Below, piece by piece: positions 6,689 to 57,573 of a DNA stretch of 57,633 nt. This stretch comes from Bacteroidales bacterium (lineage in GTDB: Bacteria; Bacteroidota; Bacteroidia; Bacteroidales; UBA932). Position 1 is the stretch's first letter. Each line of letters starts with the position of its first letter. The position numbers and the translations under genes were made by a program. Under the pieces are notes generated by a model. That model was given only the letters and a program-made list of their open reading frames with translations, ran no database searches and had not been told where the DNA came from. Location of the stretch: positions 1 through 57,633 of the forward strand of contig JAFWRQ010000035.1 in NCBI GenBank assembly GCA_017519865.1, in the 5' to 3' direction.

Positions 6689-8662
6689 TCAGGAATTCTG
6701 TTCCGGAGTGTCGTAGATGCTGAACCTCGAGTTCTGGCTCTTGAACTCCGGAACACTTTTTTTCATCAGTTTGACCATCTCGGGAATCTCGACGGCACGG
6801 GAAAGGGTTTCCAGACGGTCGACGATATGCTGAGCTTCCGAGTAGTCGTACTGGCGTACGCGGGCGATACGGATGCGGTCGTGGGAAGTGGGCTCGGTGT
6901 TCTCAGCGCTGGAGAGCACTTCCTCGTAGAGTTTCTCGCCGGGGCGAAGTCCGGTGTACTCTATGTCGATATCCTTTCCGACCTTGAGTCCGGCAAGCGC
7001 GATCATCTTCCTGGCCAGGTCGTCGATCTTGACGGATTCGCCCATGTCGAATACGAAGATCTGGTTGCCCTTGGATAGGGTCGCGGCCTCCAGCACGAGG
7101 CGGCAGGCCTCGGGAATGGTCATGAAGAAGCGGGTGATGCGCGGGTCGGTGACGGTGACGGGACCGCCTTTCTCGATCTGCTCGCGGAAGCGGGGGATGA
7201 CGGAGCCGTTGGATCCCAGGACGTTGCCGAAGCGCGTCGTGACGAACTTGGTCTTCCCCTGGACCTTTCCCGTCTCCAGGGCAAGTCCCAGGGACTGGAC
7301 ATAGATCTCTGCGAGGCGCTTGGTACAGCCCATTATGTTGGTGGGGTTGACAGCCTTGTCGGTGGAGATCATGACCATCTTCTCGACGCCGTACTCTATA
7401 CACTTGTCAGCGACGTTCCTTGAGCCATGTACGTTGACCAGCACGGCCTCGCAGGGGTTCTCTTCCATCAGCGGGACATGCTTGTATGCGGCGGCGTGGA
7501 ATACTATCTGCGGATGCCATTTGCGGAATACGTAGTCCAGGCGTGGGACCTGGCGTACGTCGCCGATCACCGGAACGAAATCGAGTTCCGGGAAGCGTCC
7601 CTCCAGTTCCAGCCTTATGTTGTGCATCGGTGTCTCGGCATTGTCGAACAGGAGAAGCTTCTTCACTCCGAAACCGGCCAGCTGGCGGCAAAGTTCGCTG
7701 CCGATGGACCCGGCCGCTCCGGTCACAAGGATGGTCTTTCCTTCGCATTCGGCCCTGATCTCGTCAATATTGAGGCGGATCTCCTCGCGTCCCAGCAGGT
7801 CCTCGATCTTGATTGCGCGGACCTTGTTCTTCATTATTCGCCCTCCGACCACTTCGTCGATGGTCGGCGCGAGCAGTATCTTTACTCCGTTCTCGGAGCA
7901 GAAGCGCACGAGCGCATCCTTCTCAAGTTTGGCGTCGGACTCCGTGGCGAAGAGTATGCAGTCGAGAGTGAAGCGGTCGAAAAGGGCTTTGAGCTTGGCC
8001 TCGCTGTTATATCCGTATACGGGGGTCTCCGCTACTGTGTACTGGGTGGGAAGGCTATGGGGAACTACGAAGCCAACAACTTGATAATGAGGGGAGTCCT
8101 TGAGACGTGACACGATGGCTACAGACTTCTCGGTCGTTCCGTAAACCAGTACGCGCTGGAGGTGGTGCTGGGCCTTCAACTGTCTCTTGTAAATGTCATA
8201 CACCAGGATCATTGCGATCCTGAGTGCGACGAGCAGGAAGGATGTCAGAAGGAAGTCGAACAACAGTGCCAGGAGGACTGTGCGGTTGACCGTGGCCAGG
8301 ATAGCGAGGACCGCGAGCATGATGATTACCTTCAGGGCGGAAATCCTGAATATGCTCGCGAGGTCGCGGAGCTGGGAATGGCGGATGACTATCTTGTAGT
8401 TCTGGAGAAGCAGCAGCGAGATGATCGTAGCGGCGAGGGCTCCCAGCAACCACCATAGGGTGAAGTGACCCTGATAGTAGGACTTGCTGTTGGCGAATAC
8501 GGTGACGAGGAAAAGGACGAGTACTGAAGACAGGCAGGACAGCACAAGGTCGGTCATGAAGATGACCCTCGTGTCCAGATACTCGAACATATATCTTTTC
8601 AGCCTCTCAGGCAGCATCCTGAGAAGCCTTCCGGGGTTGTCCTTCTTTTTGGTCTCGGTCAT
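6689..8662 (-). CDS. Membrane nucleoside-diphosphate-sugar epimerase/dehydratase (CapD/WbpM-like)
   Basis: About 657 residues. An N-terminal block of four predicted membrane helices (LVLSCLSSVLVLFLVTVFA, WWLLGALAATIISLLLL and two more) is followed by a CoA-binding/Rossmann-like middle region (VLVYGTTEKSVAIVSRL) and a short-chain dehydrogenase domain with NAD motif GAAGSIGSELCRQL, a downstream STDKA motif and GLRPGEKLYEEV. Such proteins convert UDP-N-acetylhexosamines in the first steps of capsule or O-glycan synthesis at the inner membrane. The start at 8662 (MTETKKKD) is preferred over the upstream in-frame codon at 8713, because a TAnnTTTG promoter box lies between them. It stands alone, divergent from the cysteine genes. 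Confidence 0.9.
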   Translation of the reverse strand: MTETKKKDNPGRLLRMLPERLKRYMFEYLDTRVIFMTDLVLSCLSSVLVLFLVTVFANSKSYYQGHFTLWWLLGALAATIISLLLLQNYKIVIRHSQLRDLASIFRISALKVIIMLAVLAILATVNRTVLLALLFDFLLTSFLLVALRIAMILVYDIYKRQLKAQHHLQRVLVYGTTEKSVAIVSRLKDSPHYQVVGFVVPHSLPTQYTVAETPVYGYNSEAKLKALFDRFTLDCILFATESDAKLEKDALVRFCSENGVKILLAPTIDEVVGGRIMKNKVRAIKIEDLLGREEIRLNIDEIRAECEGKTILVTGAAGSIGSELCRQLAGFGVKKLLLFDNAETPMHNIRLELEGRFPELDFVPVIGDVRQVPRLDYVFRKWHPQIVFHAAAYKHVPLMEENPCEAVLVNVHGSRNVADKCIEYGVEKMVMISTDKAVNPTNIMGCTKRLAEIYVQSLGLALETGKVQGKTKFVTTRFGNVLGSNGSVIPRFREQIEKGGPVTVTDPRITRFFMTIPEACRLVLEAATLSKGNQIFVFDMGESVKIDDLARKMIALAGLKVGKDIDIEYTGLRPGEKLYEEVLSSAENTEPTSHDRIRIARVRQYDYSEAQHIVDRLETLSRAVEIPEMVKLMKKSVPEFKSQNSRFSIYDTPEQNS

Positions 8663-8720: not shown

Positions 8721-8751
8721 TTGCAAATGAGGAAGGAATGTACTTACTTTG
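8721..8751 (+). promoter_or_regulatory. Promoter of the cysK-cysE leader
   Basis: TTG at 8721-8723, a 20-base spacer and TTACTTTG at 8744-8751 (one mismatch from TAnnTTTG). The predicted transcription start is about 8755-8758, just before the ATG of the short Cys-rich frame at 8760, so that frame would be translated with almost no 5' leader. Confidence 0.55.
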
Positions 8752-8759
8752 TATAAGAT

Positions 8760-8831
8760 ATGATTAGAACCAGCGCATATTGTCTCTGTTGTACCGTTCC
8801 CTCCGACCGGTACGGACGCCTGTATGTATAG
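8760..8831 (+). CDS. Putative Cys-rich leader peptide of cysK-cysE
   Basis: A 23-codon frame that starts with ATG at 8760 and ends with TAG at 8829-8831. Residues 1-11 read MIRTSAYCLCC: codons 8, 10 and 11 are Cys (TGT at 8781, 8787 and 8790). It lies immediately after a promoter, ahead of a strong intrinsic terminator, and upstream of the two genes that make cysteine. This is the architecture of amino-acid-responsive attenuation, in which a ribosome paused at codons for the end product changes read-through. The function is inference from layout; the frame, the codons and the terminator are seen directly. Confidence 0.65.
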   Translation: MIRTSAYCLCCTVPSDRYGRLYV

Positions 8832-8851
8832 TCTGGAACAGATATACCTGG

Positions 8852-8881
8852 AGCCCCGCCGGAAAACCGACGGGGCTTTTT
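8852..8881 (+). terminator. Intrinsic terminator inside the cysK leader (attenuator)
   Basis: AGCCCCG (8852-8858) pairs with CGGGGCT (8871-8877). Inside it CGG pairs with CCG across one mismatch around an AAAA loop, and the stem is followed by T residues to 8881. No plus-strand gene other than the short leader frame precedes it, because the neighbour on the left is transcribed away. It can therefore only act on transcripts that start in the leader. No other TAnnTTTG box is seen between it and the cysK ATG at 8916. Confidence 0.85.
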
Positions 8882-8915
8882 GTTATTGAACGATAAACAC
8901 TTAACAATTATTATC

Positions 8916-9851
8916 ATGATTTACGATTCCCTTACTTCCCTTGTGGGCAACACTCCGTTGCTGCGCGTTTCCGGCCTTGATGGCCAATTGGCGGAAATCA
9001 TCCTGAAACTTGAGTATTTCAATCCCGGCGGAAGCGTCAAGGACCGCGTGGCCCTTGCGATGATCGAGGATGCCGAATCGAAGGGCATCCTTCTGCCGGG
9101 AGCATCCATCATAGAGCCGACGAGCGGCAACACCGGCGTCGGCCTTGCCTGGGTAGGCCGTTCCAAGGGCTACCGGGTAGTGCTCACCATGCCCGATACT
9201 ATGAGCCAGGAACGCCGGAGCCTACTCAGGGCACTTGGTGCCGAACTGGTCCTGACACCCGGCTCCGAGGGCATGAAAGGCGCCATCCGCAAGGCGGAGG
9301 AACTGCGTGACTCCACGCCAGGCGCCGTCATCCTCGGCCAGTTCGTCAATCCGGCCAATCCCGCCGTACACGAGCGTACGACTGCGGAGGAGATCTGGCG
9401 CGACACAGACGGTCGCCTGGACATCTTCGTGGCGGGAGTGGGCACGGGAGGTACCGTCAGCGGTACCGGGCGGGCGCTCAAGCGCCACGATCCCGCAGTG
9501 CGTGTCGTGGCCGTCGAGCCCGCAGGTTCGCCAGTGCTCTCCACCGGCGTCCCCGGCAAGCACGGCATCCAGGGCATCGGCGCGGGCTTCGTGCCCGCCA
9601 CCTACGACGCTTCCGCCATCGACTCCGTCCTGACGGTGGAGGATAAGGAAGCTGTCGGCGCTTCGAGGCTGCTGGCCGCGCGGCTGTGCCTTCTGGTGGG
9701 CATCAGTTCCGGCGCAGCATTCGCTGCCGCCCTGAGGCTTGCGCGTCAACCGGAGAATGCCGGCAAGCGCATAGTCGCCCTGCTCCCGGACACAGGCGAG
9801 CGCTATCTCTCCACAGTATTGTATGCATTTGACGAATATCCCGTAGAATAA
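8916..9851 (+). CDS. cysK: Cysteine synthase (O-acetylserine sulfhydrylase)
   Basis: PLP enzyme of about 311 residues that replaces the acetyl group of O-acetylserine with sulfide to give cysteine. PLP Lys42 lies in NPGGSVKDR, the substrate loop is PTSGNTG (68-74), the phosphate-binding glycine loop is GVGTGGTVSG, and GISSGAA is near the end. The start at 8916 is chosen because the longer frame from 8880 would begin in the terminator tail. It overlaps cysE by one base (TAATG), so the two are translationally coupled. Expression is probably controlled by the leader at 8755-8881. Confidence 0.95.
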   Translation: MIYDSLTSLVGNTPLLRVSGLDGQLAEIILKLEYFNPGGSVKDRVALAMIEDAESKGILLPGASIIEPTSGNTGVGLAWVGRSKGYRVVLTMPDTMSQERRSLLRALGAELVLTPGSEGMKGAIRKAEELRDSTPGAVILGQFVNPANPAVHERTTAEEIWRDTDGRLDIFVAGVGTGGTVSGTGRALKRHDPAVRVVAVEPAGSPVLSTGVPGKHGIQGIGAGFVPATYDASAIDSVLTVEDKEAVGASRLLAARLCLLVGISSGAAFAAALRLARQPENAGKRIVALLPDTGERYLSTVLYAFDEYPVE

Positions 9852-10588
9852 TGAGCGTATCCCTCAACCAGACTGTCGGACATCTCAAGTCGCTGATGTC
9901 CAGCGTAAAGGATGTCGTTTTCCCGATGTACAGCGAAGTGCGTACCGAAAGCGCCCTTTCCAATATCTCCGACCGCCTGGCTGCCGTCAGTTCCCGTGAT
10001 GTCGCGGAGGCCTTCATCGGAAGGCTTCCGGCCATCCGGGAGCTCGTGGAAACCGACGTCGAGGCCGTCGTCCACAACGACCCTGCCGCCAGCGATCCCA
10101 GGGAGGTGGTTTTCTGCTATCCCGCCGTCACCGCCATGCTCTATTACCGCACGGCTCACGAACTCCATCTCCTGGGGGTCCCGGTCATACCGCGCATGCT
10201 CACCGAGTATGCGCACTCGGTGACCGGCATCGACATCCATCCCGCCGCGGTGATCGGTGACCATTTCGCCATCGACCACGGCACCGGGGTGGTGATAGGG
10301 GAGACGTCAGTCATCGGTAGTCATGTGACGCTCTATCAAGGAGTTACTTTGGGAGCGAAGAACTTCTCGTACGATAGTGAGGGCCATCCGATGCGCATCC
10401 CCCGTCATCCCGTCCTCGAGGACAACGTCACGGTTTATTCCAACGCCTCCATCCTCGGACGCATCACCATCGGCGAGGGGTCCGTCATAGGCGGCAACGT
10501 GTGGCTGACGCATTCTGTGCCGAAGCATTCGCGTATCCTGCAAGGGAAAGTACAGGACCTTGGTTTTACCGACGGAGCGGGAATCTGA
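9851..10588 (+). CDS. cysE: Serine O-acetyltransferase
   Basis: Left-handed beta-helix acyltransferase of 245 residues that makes O-acetylserine from serine and acetyl-CoA, supplying the substrate of the CysK encoded just upstream. Family motifs: IDIHPAAVIG, DHGTGVVIGET, LYQGVTLGA and the hexapeptide run ITIGEGSVIGGNVWL. The N-terminal helical part is typical of the longer SAT form. Start and stop overlap with cysK by one base. Known SATs are feedback-inhibited by cysteine, so attenuation of this operon would be a second level of control. Confidence 0.95.
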   Translation: MSVSLNQTVGHLKSLMSSVKDVVFPMYSEVRTESALSNISDRLAAVSSRDVAEAFIGRLPAIRELVETDVEAVVHNDPAASDPREVVFCYPAVTAMLYYRTAHELHLLGVPVIPRMLTEYAHSVTGIDIHPAAVIGDHFAIDHGTGVVIGETSVIGSHVTLYQGVTLGAKNFSYDSEGHPMRIPRHPVLEDNVTVYSNASILGRITIGEGSVIGGNVWLTHSVPKHSRILQGKVQDLGFTDGAGI

Positions 10589-14260: not shown

Positions 14261-14657
14261 GGGGATGTTTTGGTTTTGACAGCATCGATGCGGGACAGTA
14301 AGCACGCCGTGAGTCGGAAGCCCTCACGTAAATACCAGTTTCCAAAAAACTAGTTGGCAACAACAATTACGCACTCGCTGCTTAATTTGACCAAGTCAAA
14401 TGGCTTAATCCGATCCGCCTAGGCTGCGGGTCAGACGAGTATCCCTCCGGGCTTTATGCCGGTTATGACCGGGTCAAGGGGTATCATTCAAACCGGACGC
14501 GTGGGGTAATTCCTCTGAATCCTCACTAAGACGCAGGGGATAAGCTTCGGGTGGCCCGCCTTCCGGCAGCCCGTCGCCGACAATCAAAGGACGGATAAGC
14601 GTGTAGAAAGCTCTCTTGTGCGTTGTTTGGACGGCGGTTCGAGTCCGCCCATCTCCA
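14261..14657 (+). ncRNA. ssrA: Transfer-messenger RNA (tmRNA)
   Basis: The tmRNA frees stalled ribosomes and tags the unfinished peptide. The 5' end GGGGATG pairs with CATCTCC near the 3' end to form the acceptor stem, and GGTTCGAGTCC before it is the T arm. CCA does not appear to be encoded. The tag frame at 14356-14385 reads GNNNYALAA then TAA, close to the Bacteroidetes tag pattern ending NYALAA. Conserved opening TTTTGGTTTTGACAGCATCG is visible. Length is about 397 nt. Confidence 0.95.
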
Positions 14658-14659
14658 CG

Positions 14660-14687
14660 AAAAAGCCGGTCGGACGACCGGCTTTTT
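14660..14687. terminator. Bidirectional terminator between tmRNA and the thioesterase gene
   Basis: AAAAAGCCGGTC (14660-14671) pairs with GACCGGCTTTTT (14676-14687) around a GGAC tetraloop. It has A- and T-runs on both sides, so it can end tmRNA and the convergent gene. Confidence 0.9.
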
Positions 14688-57500: not shown

Positions 57501-57573
57501 GACTCGTTAGCTCAGTTGGTAGAGCACAACACTTTTAATGTTGGGGTCTCGGGTTCGAGCCCCGAACGGGTCA
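57501..57573 (+). tRNA. tRNA-Lys (anticodon UUU)
   Basis: 73 nt. Acceptor GACTCGT pairs with ACGGGTC. The D arm (GCTCAGTTGGTAGAGC), the anticodon stem CAACA/TGTTG with loop CTTTTAA (anticodon at 57534-57536), and the T arm (CGGGTTCGAGCCCCG) are standard. CCA is not encoded. Confidence 0.97.

Follow-up and report, generated by a model that had tools for sequence, protein, structure and literature searches.

A probable cysteine-responsive leader-peptide attenuator before cysK–cysE in an uncultured Bacteroidales genus

Genes and signals at the cysK–cysE locus

The window analysed here is a 57,633-nucleotide stretch of DNA from a Bacteroidales genome, probably of the genus Candidatus Cryptobacteroides, that comprises 37 contigs and is 75% complete. 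Its plus strand carries a cysteine synthase A gene, cysK (8916–9851; TIGR01139, 417 bits against a cut-off of 350.95; Pfam PALP), followed at 9851–10588 by a cysE-like serine O-acetyltransferase gene whose start shares one base with the cysK stop codon. The product of this second gene contains a hexapeptide repeat and matches TIGR01172 at 158.9 bits, below the NCBIfam cut-off of 210.65 bits. The left neighbour of cysK lies on the minus strand and reaches approximately position 8662. Elsewhere in the window, an Rfam scan placed a tmRNA at 14261–14660 and a tRNA gene at 57501–57573.

Upstream of cysK, the plus strand contains a short frame of 23 codons, MIRTSAYCLCCTVPSDRYGRLYV (8760–8831; ATG at 8760, TAG at 8831), with cysteine at codons 8, 10 and 11 (8781–8783, 8787–8789 and 8790–8792), just as a first-pass annotation made from the sequence had described. 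Among 349 ATG frames of 10–45 amino acids in the window, five have at least three cysteines within six codons, and only the frame at 8760–8831 among them has a terminator after it by the criterion applied. The intrinsic terminator that the annotation had placed before cysK is likewise present, as a hairpin spanning 8851–8878 (−19.3 kcal/mol) with a T run at 8877–8881, and was missed by a simple consensus terminator scan. As had been argued, the minus-strand orientation of the left neighbour leaves no other plus-strand gene that this terminator could serve.

Sequence inspection and a pattern scan located promoter-like boxes on the plus strand at 8721–8751 (TTG at 8721–8723, a 20-nt spacer and TTACTTTG at 8744–8751), resembling what we take to be the Bacteroidetes promoter consensus. 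The boxes proposed earlier as the promoter are present, but the loose pattern used is non-specific, with 12 matches over both strands of the window, so they are a plausible promoter and not proof of one. Contrary to the accompanying remark that no second promoter is seen in this interval, one weak sigma-70-like match lies at 8886–8914 (9/12), between the terminator and cysK. The leader ATG of the window lies 8 nt 3' of the TTTG box, a spacing which suggests that translation may begin on a near-leaderless RNA. Over 38 leader frames of the genus, the nearest TTTG falls at most 10 nt 5' of the start in 20, counting any TTTG, promoter-like or not.

Cysteine-codon leaders and competing helices across the genus

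A DNA search of 61 genomes with the window leader matched only the leader itself, and mean column identity in the leader alignment was 50%. Since the leaders are this divergent, relatives were sought through cysK and the DNA upstream was then read. We searched 151 genomes of the genus, revealing cysK matches in 65 at E 1e-30 (73 matches in total), and examined the surroundings of 70 matches, with three partial ones left out. An ATG frame with at least three cysteines in six codons was found within 420 nt upstream of cysK in 18 of these 70 regions. Direct reading of 32 upstream regions that lacked such a frame or were otherwise of interest added three more (L023, L039 and L041) for a set of 21 leaders, with peptides that include MRNMNAYACLCCAGPEDR, MTRIYTSVCCICTILSDWYGV, MRNEMIISMSACCCCCFAPVSDWYGKPAL and MNKQSFSMCCCCAALKVGTV. 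A terminator was found by script in 20 of the 21, the exception being L054, and the hairpin was placed 29–98 nt from the cysK start. The comparison of relatives that the first-pass annotation had proposed as a check thus found the cysteine codons, the frame and the terminator kept in many genomes of the genus, and no leader outside it in the material searched; the outcome said to count against attenuation, non-conservation of the codons or frame, did not appear.

Of the 59 genus cysK matches with an identity of 60% or more, 21 have the leader and 38 gave none, the frame script being the sole test for some of the latter. In a check of gene order, cysE lay 3' of cysK in 20/20 leader loci whose sequence extends past cysK, which that of L070 does not, and in 23/38 loci where no leader was found. 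Codon counts were taken over 38 frames, a set that differs slightly from the 38 leaders folded below (L047 is included and L217 is not), revealing 105 TGT and 30 TGC codons in the clusters, with only two cysteines in the cluster in two of the frames.

In three leader loci (L022, L025 and L029), the leader ATG lies 4 nt beyond the stop codon that closes the preceding gene, by eye rpoC, so the attenuator may there sit inside a longer transcript. At another locus, L014, cysK occurs without cysE, and the DNA before it shows, by eye, a short frame free of cysteine (MQDFLQQYKYTLPISG) between a TTTG box and a terminator-like hairpin; the Cys codons of a former leader may have been lost here.

We scanned a leader alignment, A1, for helices, using 18 of the 21 leaders and omitting the divergent L047, L054 and L056 (L054 also being without a terminator by script). 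The scan identified three helices that share arms, designated 1:2, 2:3 and 3:4 after the regions that they join. On the plus strand of the window, region 1 (GTACCG, 8791–8796), made up of the last Cys codon and the next bases, pairs with 8808–8813 in the whole-leader fold. Region 2 (CCGGTACGG, 8807–8815) lies inside the leader frame and has alternative partners, forming either the 3' arm of the 1:2 hairpin with region 1 or the 5' arm of the predicted antiterminator with the terminator 5' arm. The latter begins at 8851 within region 3 (8850–8862), and region 4 (8867–8881) consists of the terminator 3' arm (8867–8878) and the T run.

Helix 2:3 was paired in 92.5% of 159 cells in the 18 leaders, compared with at most 49.6% for slid versions of the helix, and showed 27 both-side changes versus 11.1 in shuffles, with 0/500 shuffles as high; because all leaders are related and belong to one genus, shuffles overstate independence here and in the comparisons that follow. 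Helix 3:4 was also paired in 92.5% of cells, with 35 both-side changes versus 10.7 in shuffles. Helix 1:2, a candidate protector hairpin over the control codons, was paired in 83.3% of cells with no covariation beyond shuffles in these leaders, and a claim of covariation for it was dropped. The first-pass annotation had suggested an antiterminator in which 8835–8842 pairs with 8785–8790 or 8796–8800; these pairings are not the conserved ones and were discarded, the conserved helix lying elsewhere, between 8807–8815 and 8850–8862.

A covariance model, R1, was built from these 18 sequences; its structure included helices 1:2 and 3:4 and omitted 2:3. Applied to 400 genus genomes, the window's own included, it returned 41 places in 40 genomes, recovering all 18 training loci together with 23 further places. 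Directly before cysK were 20 of the 23, with cysE after cysK in 17 of them within the available DNA (cysE was not seen in L210 or L212, and the L191 sequence ends inside cysK). Frames with at least two cysteines in six codons occur at 21/23 further places, comprising L211, L218 and 19 of those before cysK; the twentieth of these, L217, is truncated at a contig end and had no Cys frame counted. L211 sits at a contig edge and encodes a peptide identical to that of training leader L005. By eye, the L218 leader is joined to an apparent cysK interior, by deletion or misassembly, and as its terminator part is missing it was left out of the 2:3, folding and shuffle counts. The remaining place, L221 (E 0.0086), is no leader. 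In 20 leaders outside the model, helix 2:3 was paired in 167/176 cells (best of 1,000 shuffles, 154) with 22 both-side changes (maximum of 1,000 shuffles, 16), and it was the best helix in the scanned range.

The duplex of regions 2 and 3 had a z score under −2 against shuffles in 14 of 20 leaders, with a mean energy of −18.2 kcal/mol for own pairs versus −13.3 kcal/mol for foreign pairs; for L018 and L023, the simple hairpin preceding the T run was used in this test instead of the composite terminator given by the script. The leaders that missed −2 were L003, L023, L047, L056, L070 and that of the window, whose duplex shows no advantage over shuffles (−13.8 versus −14.3; z = +0.18). The region 2 motif GGTTGGTAYGG falls in another frame in L018 and past the stop codon in L023, which indicates that region 2 is kept as RNA.

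Folding was modelled in 38 leaders (18 training and 20 others). A ribosome was represented by 12 covered nucleotides at the final aligned Cys codon, and at least four region 2:3 pairs counted as an antiterminator. With the ribosome so placed, the antiterminator was predicted in 38/38 leaders, compared with 231/1,520 (15%) in a shuffle control, and with region 2 covered the terminator was predicted in 38/38. Without a ribosome, the terminator was predicted in 32/38 and the 1:2 hairpin in 28/38, with neither in 6/38. For the window, a ribosome at codon 11 gave a predicted antiterminator (−17.8 kcal/mol) that pairs 8807–8811 with 8858–8862 (GCCGG) and 8814–8815 with 8854–8855, together with three outer pairs; the region 3 bases engaged upstream are 8858–8862, 8853–8855 and 8850–8851. 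It encloses a hairpin at 8826–8847 (GTATA and TCTG with CAGA and TATAC), which is part of the predicted fold of the window only. This 2:3 fold was predicted in two codon-11 maskings, and masking at codon 8 led to another fold. The predicted antiterminator of the window is short and weak. Once region 4 was present, the terminator was the best fold in 3/3 maskings, so the switch in the window would rest on the order of synthesis. The outcome in known attenuators is likewise set by the order in which the RNA is made.

Proposed attenuation mechanism and its alternatives

Very probably, this leader controls cysK–cysE by ribosome-mediated transcription attenuation in response to charged tRNA-Cys. 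The first-pass annotation had taken the locus for a cysteine-responsive attenuator, and this reading is supported by the same-genus Cys-codon leaders with a terminator before cysK and by the covarying antiterminator. The traits of the attenuator class occur together here: a cluster of end-product codons in a predicted frame, a terminator before the first gene, an antiterminator exclusive of it and cysteine-making genes downstream. RNA polymerase would start at about 8756–8760, and translation would begin at the ATG, located at the 5' end of the RNA or close to it. When cysteine is sufficient, the ribosome would read past the Cys codons as far as the stop codon and cover region 2, allowing the 3:4 terminator to form and transcription to end before cysK. 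When charged tRNA-Cys is scarce, the ribosome would wait at the Cys codons and cover region 1, leaving region 2 free to pair with region 3 as the antiterminator and polymerase free to continue into cysK–cysE. If the leader were not translated, region 1 would pair with region 2 and the terminator would form. The two genes would thus probably be read only when cysteine is short.

Work on mycobacteria suggests a different arrangement, in which control is translational: a stalled ribosome would alter access to the cysK start and the hairpin would be incidental. Excerpts of PMC1262725 describe Mycobacterium Cys leader frames without conserved terminators, and translation attenuation in M. smegmatis appears among the work cited in the accessible part of PMC13236596. 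We regard this as very unlikely at the present locus, where a hairpin with a T run stands between the frame and cysK in 20/21 leaders, at the 29–98 nt from the cysK start given above, and covaries.

A structured, covarying leader could also be expected of a metabolite riboswitch or a tRNA-binding T-box that drives the terminator, the Cys frame being a by-product. Only the tmRNA and the tRNA reach the Rfam gathering score in the window, however, none does in ten related loci, and clusters of in-frame Cys codons that vary synonymously between TGT and TGC make sense only if translated; this reading is almost certainly wrong. The leader might instead be mainly an independent gene, ending at its own terminator, for a free small RNA or a peptide that acts elsewhere, with cysK served by a promoter after the terminator. 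The 9/12 match at 8886–8914 could supply such a promoter, and a leader peptide acting in trans, peTrpL, is reported in the portion of PMC7298713 available to us. The location of 20/23 non-training R1 places before cysK, together with a conserved 2:3 pairing for which a simple small RNA would have no obvious need, makes a gene of this sort extremely improbable.

The trp and his attenuators of enterobacteria are the classical leader-peptide systems for amino acids. The cysK leader resembles them in its end-product codons within the leader frame, its mutually exclusive regions 1–4 and its terminator before the first gene, and differs in the amino acid (cysteine), the genes (cysK–cysE), the lineage (Bacteroidales) and a start codon that is probably near the RNA 5' end. 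Against the Rfam Trp_leader family (RF00513), the leader scored 16.9 bits, short of the threshold of 41, and weak Rfam matches below threshold were set aside.

Polycysteine leaderless short ORFs of mycobacteria were reportedly described by Canestrari in 2020, according to papers that cite the work. Going by that title the mycobacterial frames are leaderless; here the ATG follows the TTTG box by 8 nt and the start site is a predicted one. The mycobacterial and actinobacterial leaders, as far as the excerpted sources describe them, share with ours the runs of Cys codons in a short frame before cysteine genes. Unlike the leaders known in Actinobacteria, for which the excerpts of PMC1262725 report no conserved terminator, those described here have a conserved terminator, and terminator and antiterminator covary. 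In Rhodobacterales, the uORFC-8-2 motif before cysS combines a short frame, conserved Cys codons in the first stem (two, usually 14 and 15) and a terminator, and ribosome-mediated attenuation has been proposed for it (partial text of PMC8632094). The likeness, a short Cys-codon frame with a terminator, is one of description only; the motif belongs to another phylum and, in the same partial text, controls a cysteinyl-tRNA synthetase rather than biosynthesis.

Within Bacteroidota, leader-peptide attenuation has been suggested for amino-acid operons of Flavobacterium psychrophilum (PMC9723704), and short ORFs in 5' UTRs have been reported in Bacteroides thetaiotaomicron (PMC7366714); the available sections of these two papers name neither cysteine biosynthesis nor cysK. 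No Bacteroidota cysteine case is named in the available sections of PMC2965389 or PMC4833913. The first-pass annotation knew of no described Cys leader for Bacteroidetes cysK–cysE, and we found no report of a Bacteroidota cysteine leader among the top matches in open-licence full-text literature, which is not proof of novelty. The kind of attenuator is known; its cysteine version appears to be new in Bacteroidota and is well supported by sequence comparison. For a gut lineage not yet in culture, it would supply a specific cysteine control circuit that can be tested by experiment; we found few publications on amino-acid attenuation in this phylum. In the material searched, the complete four-region attenuator occurs in a single genus and serves one amino acid.

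Candidate leaders for other amino acids and outside the genus

We also scanned for short frames rich in other amino acids, allowing GTG and TTG starts, with thresholds chosen while looking and no shuffle control. His-run frames preceded hisG in 17/18 genus loci (L228–L245), including MNDRTRTTQGHHHHYTM in the window's own genome (L236), and in 25/30 order-level loci (L286–L315), one of which, L315, is incomplete and may be misread. Most of these His frames have a terminator after them. With a nearer limit, His frames were found in 24/30 order-level loci, with a terminator in 20 of the 24. Trp-run frames preceded trpB in all five genus loci over the trpB cut-off (L266–L270; for example, MIYSNSYWWWRFYNFNKS), each with a terminator. 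At least three phenylalanines in seven codons were found by script before prephenate dehydratase in 8/20 loci (L246–L265), not all of them leader-like; L253 carries the Phe-rich frame MKTRFFAFGFYFYYPIR in this position. No Rfam match was obtained in ten loci (two hisG, L236 and L290; two trpB; one prephenate dehydratase; and five cysK).

The scan of 247 order genomes with R1 (the window's own and 246 others) revealed six weak matches in the 246. The best match outside the genus (L222; E 0.0012) was a Trp leader from another Bacteroidales family, with MKSILVNAYWWRHLQLQKS and a terminator before trpB. The other five were judged by eye not to be Cys leaders, two of them (L224 and L227) having no downstream frame in the available DNA. 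No Cys leader adjoined cysK in the 25 of 29 order-level cysK loci read by script, where L075 has one Cys frame 306 nt upstream, and a cysK search at E 1e-80 in 25 genomes of a sister genus was negative. With no leader adjoining cysK and few, weak R1 matches, an order-wide Cys leader was dropped.

Given the His frames before hisG, the Trp frames before trpB and the Trp leader as R1's best outside match, we lean slightly towards the view that Bacteroidales leader-peptide attenuators for much of amino-acid biosynthesis share one RNA layout, which Cryptobacteroides re-coded for cysteine. The median distance from TTTG to start was 16.5 nt in 20 measured order-level loci and 9.5 nt in 14 genus loci, so a very short 5' end is not order-wide; this, the GTG and TTG starts and the uncontrolled His and Trp scans count against a shared layout. 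The work points to Bacteroidales His and Trp leaders without an Rfam match, and such leaders could serve as amino-acid-responsive parts in Bacteroides.

Among 80 Clostridia loci, 12 gave matches, from which we picked by eye eight with Cys-cluster short frames before cysK (L141, L143, L148, L157, L162, L167, L175 and L177). These are perhaps convergent cysteine leaders, and in three of them (L148, L167 and L177) a terminator-like hairpin was also visible by eye.
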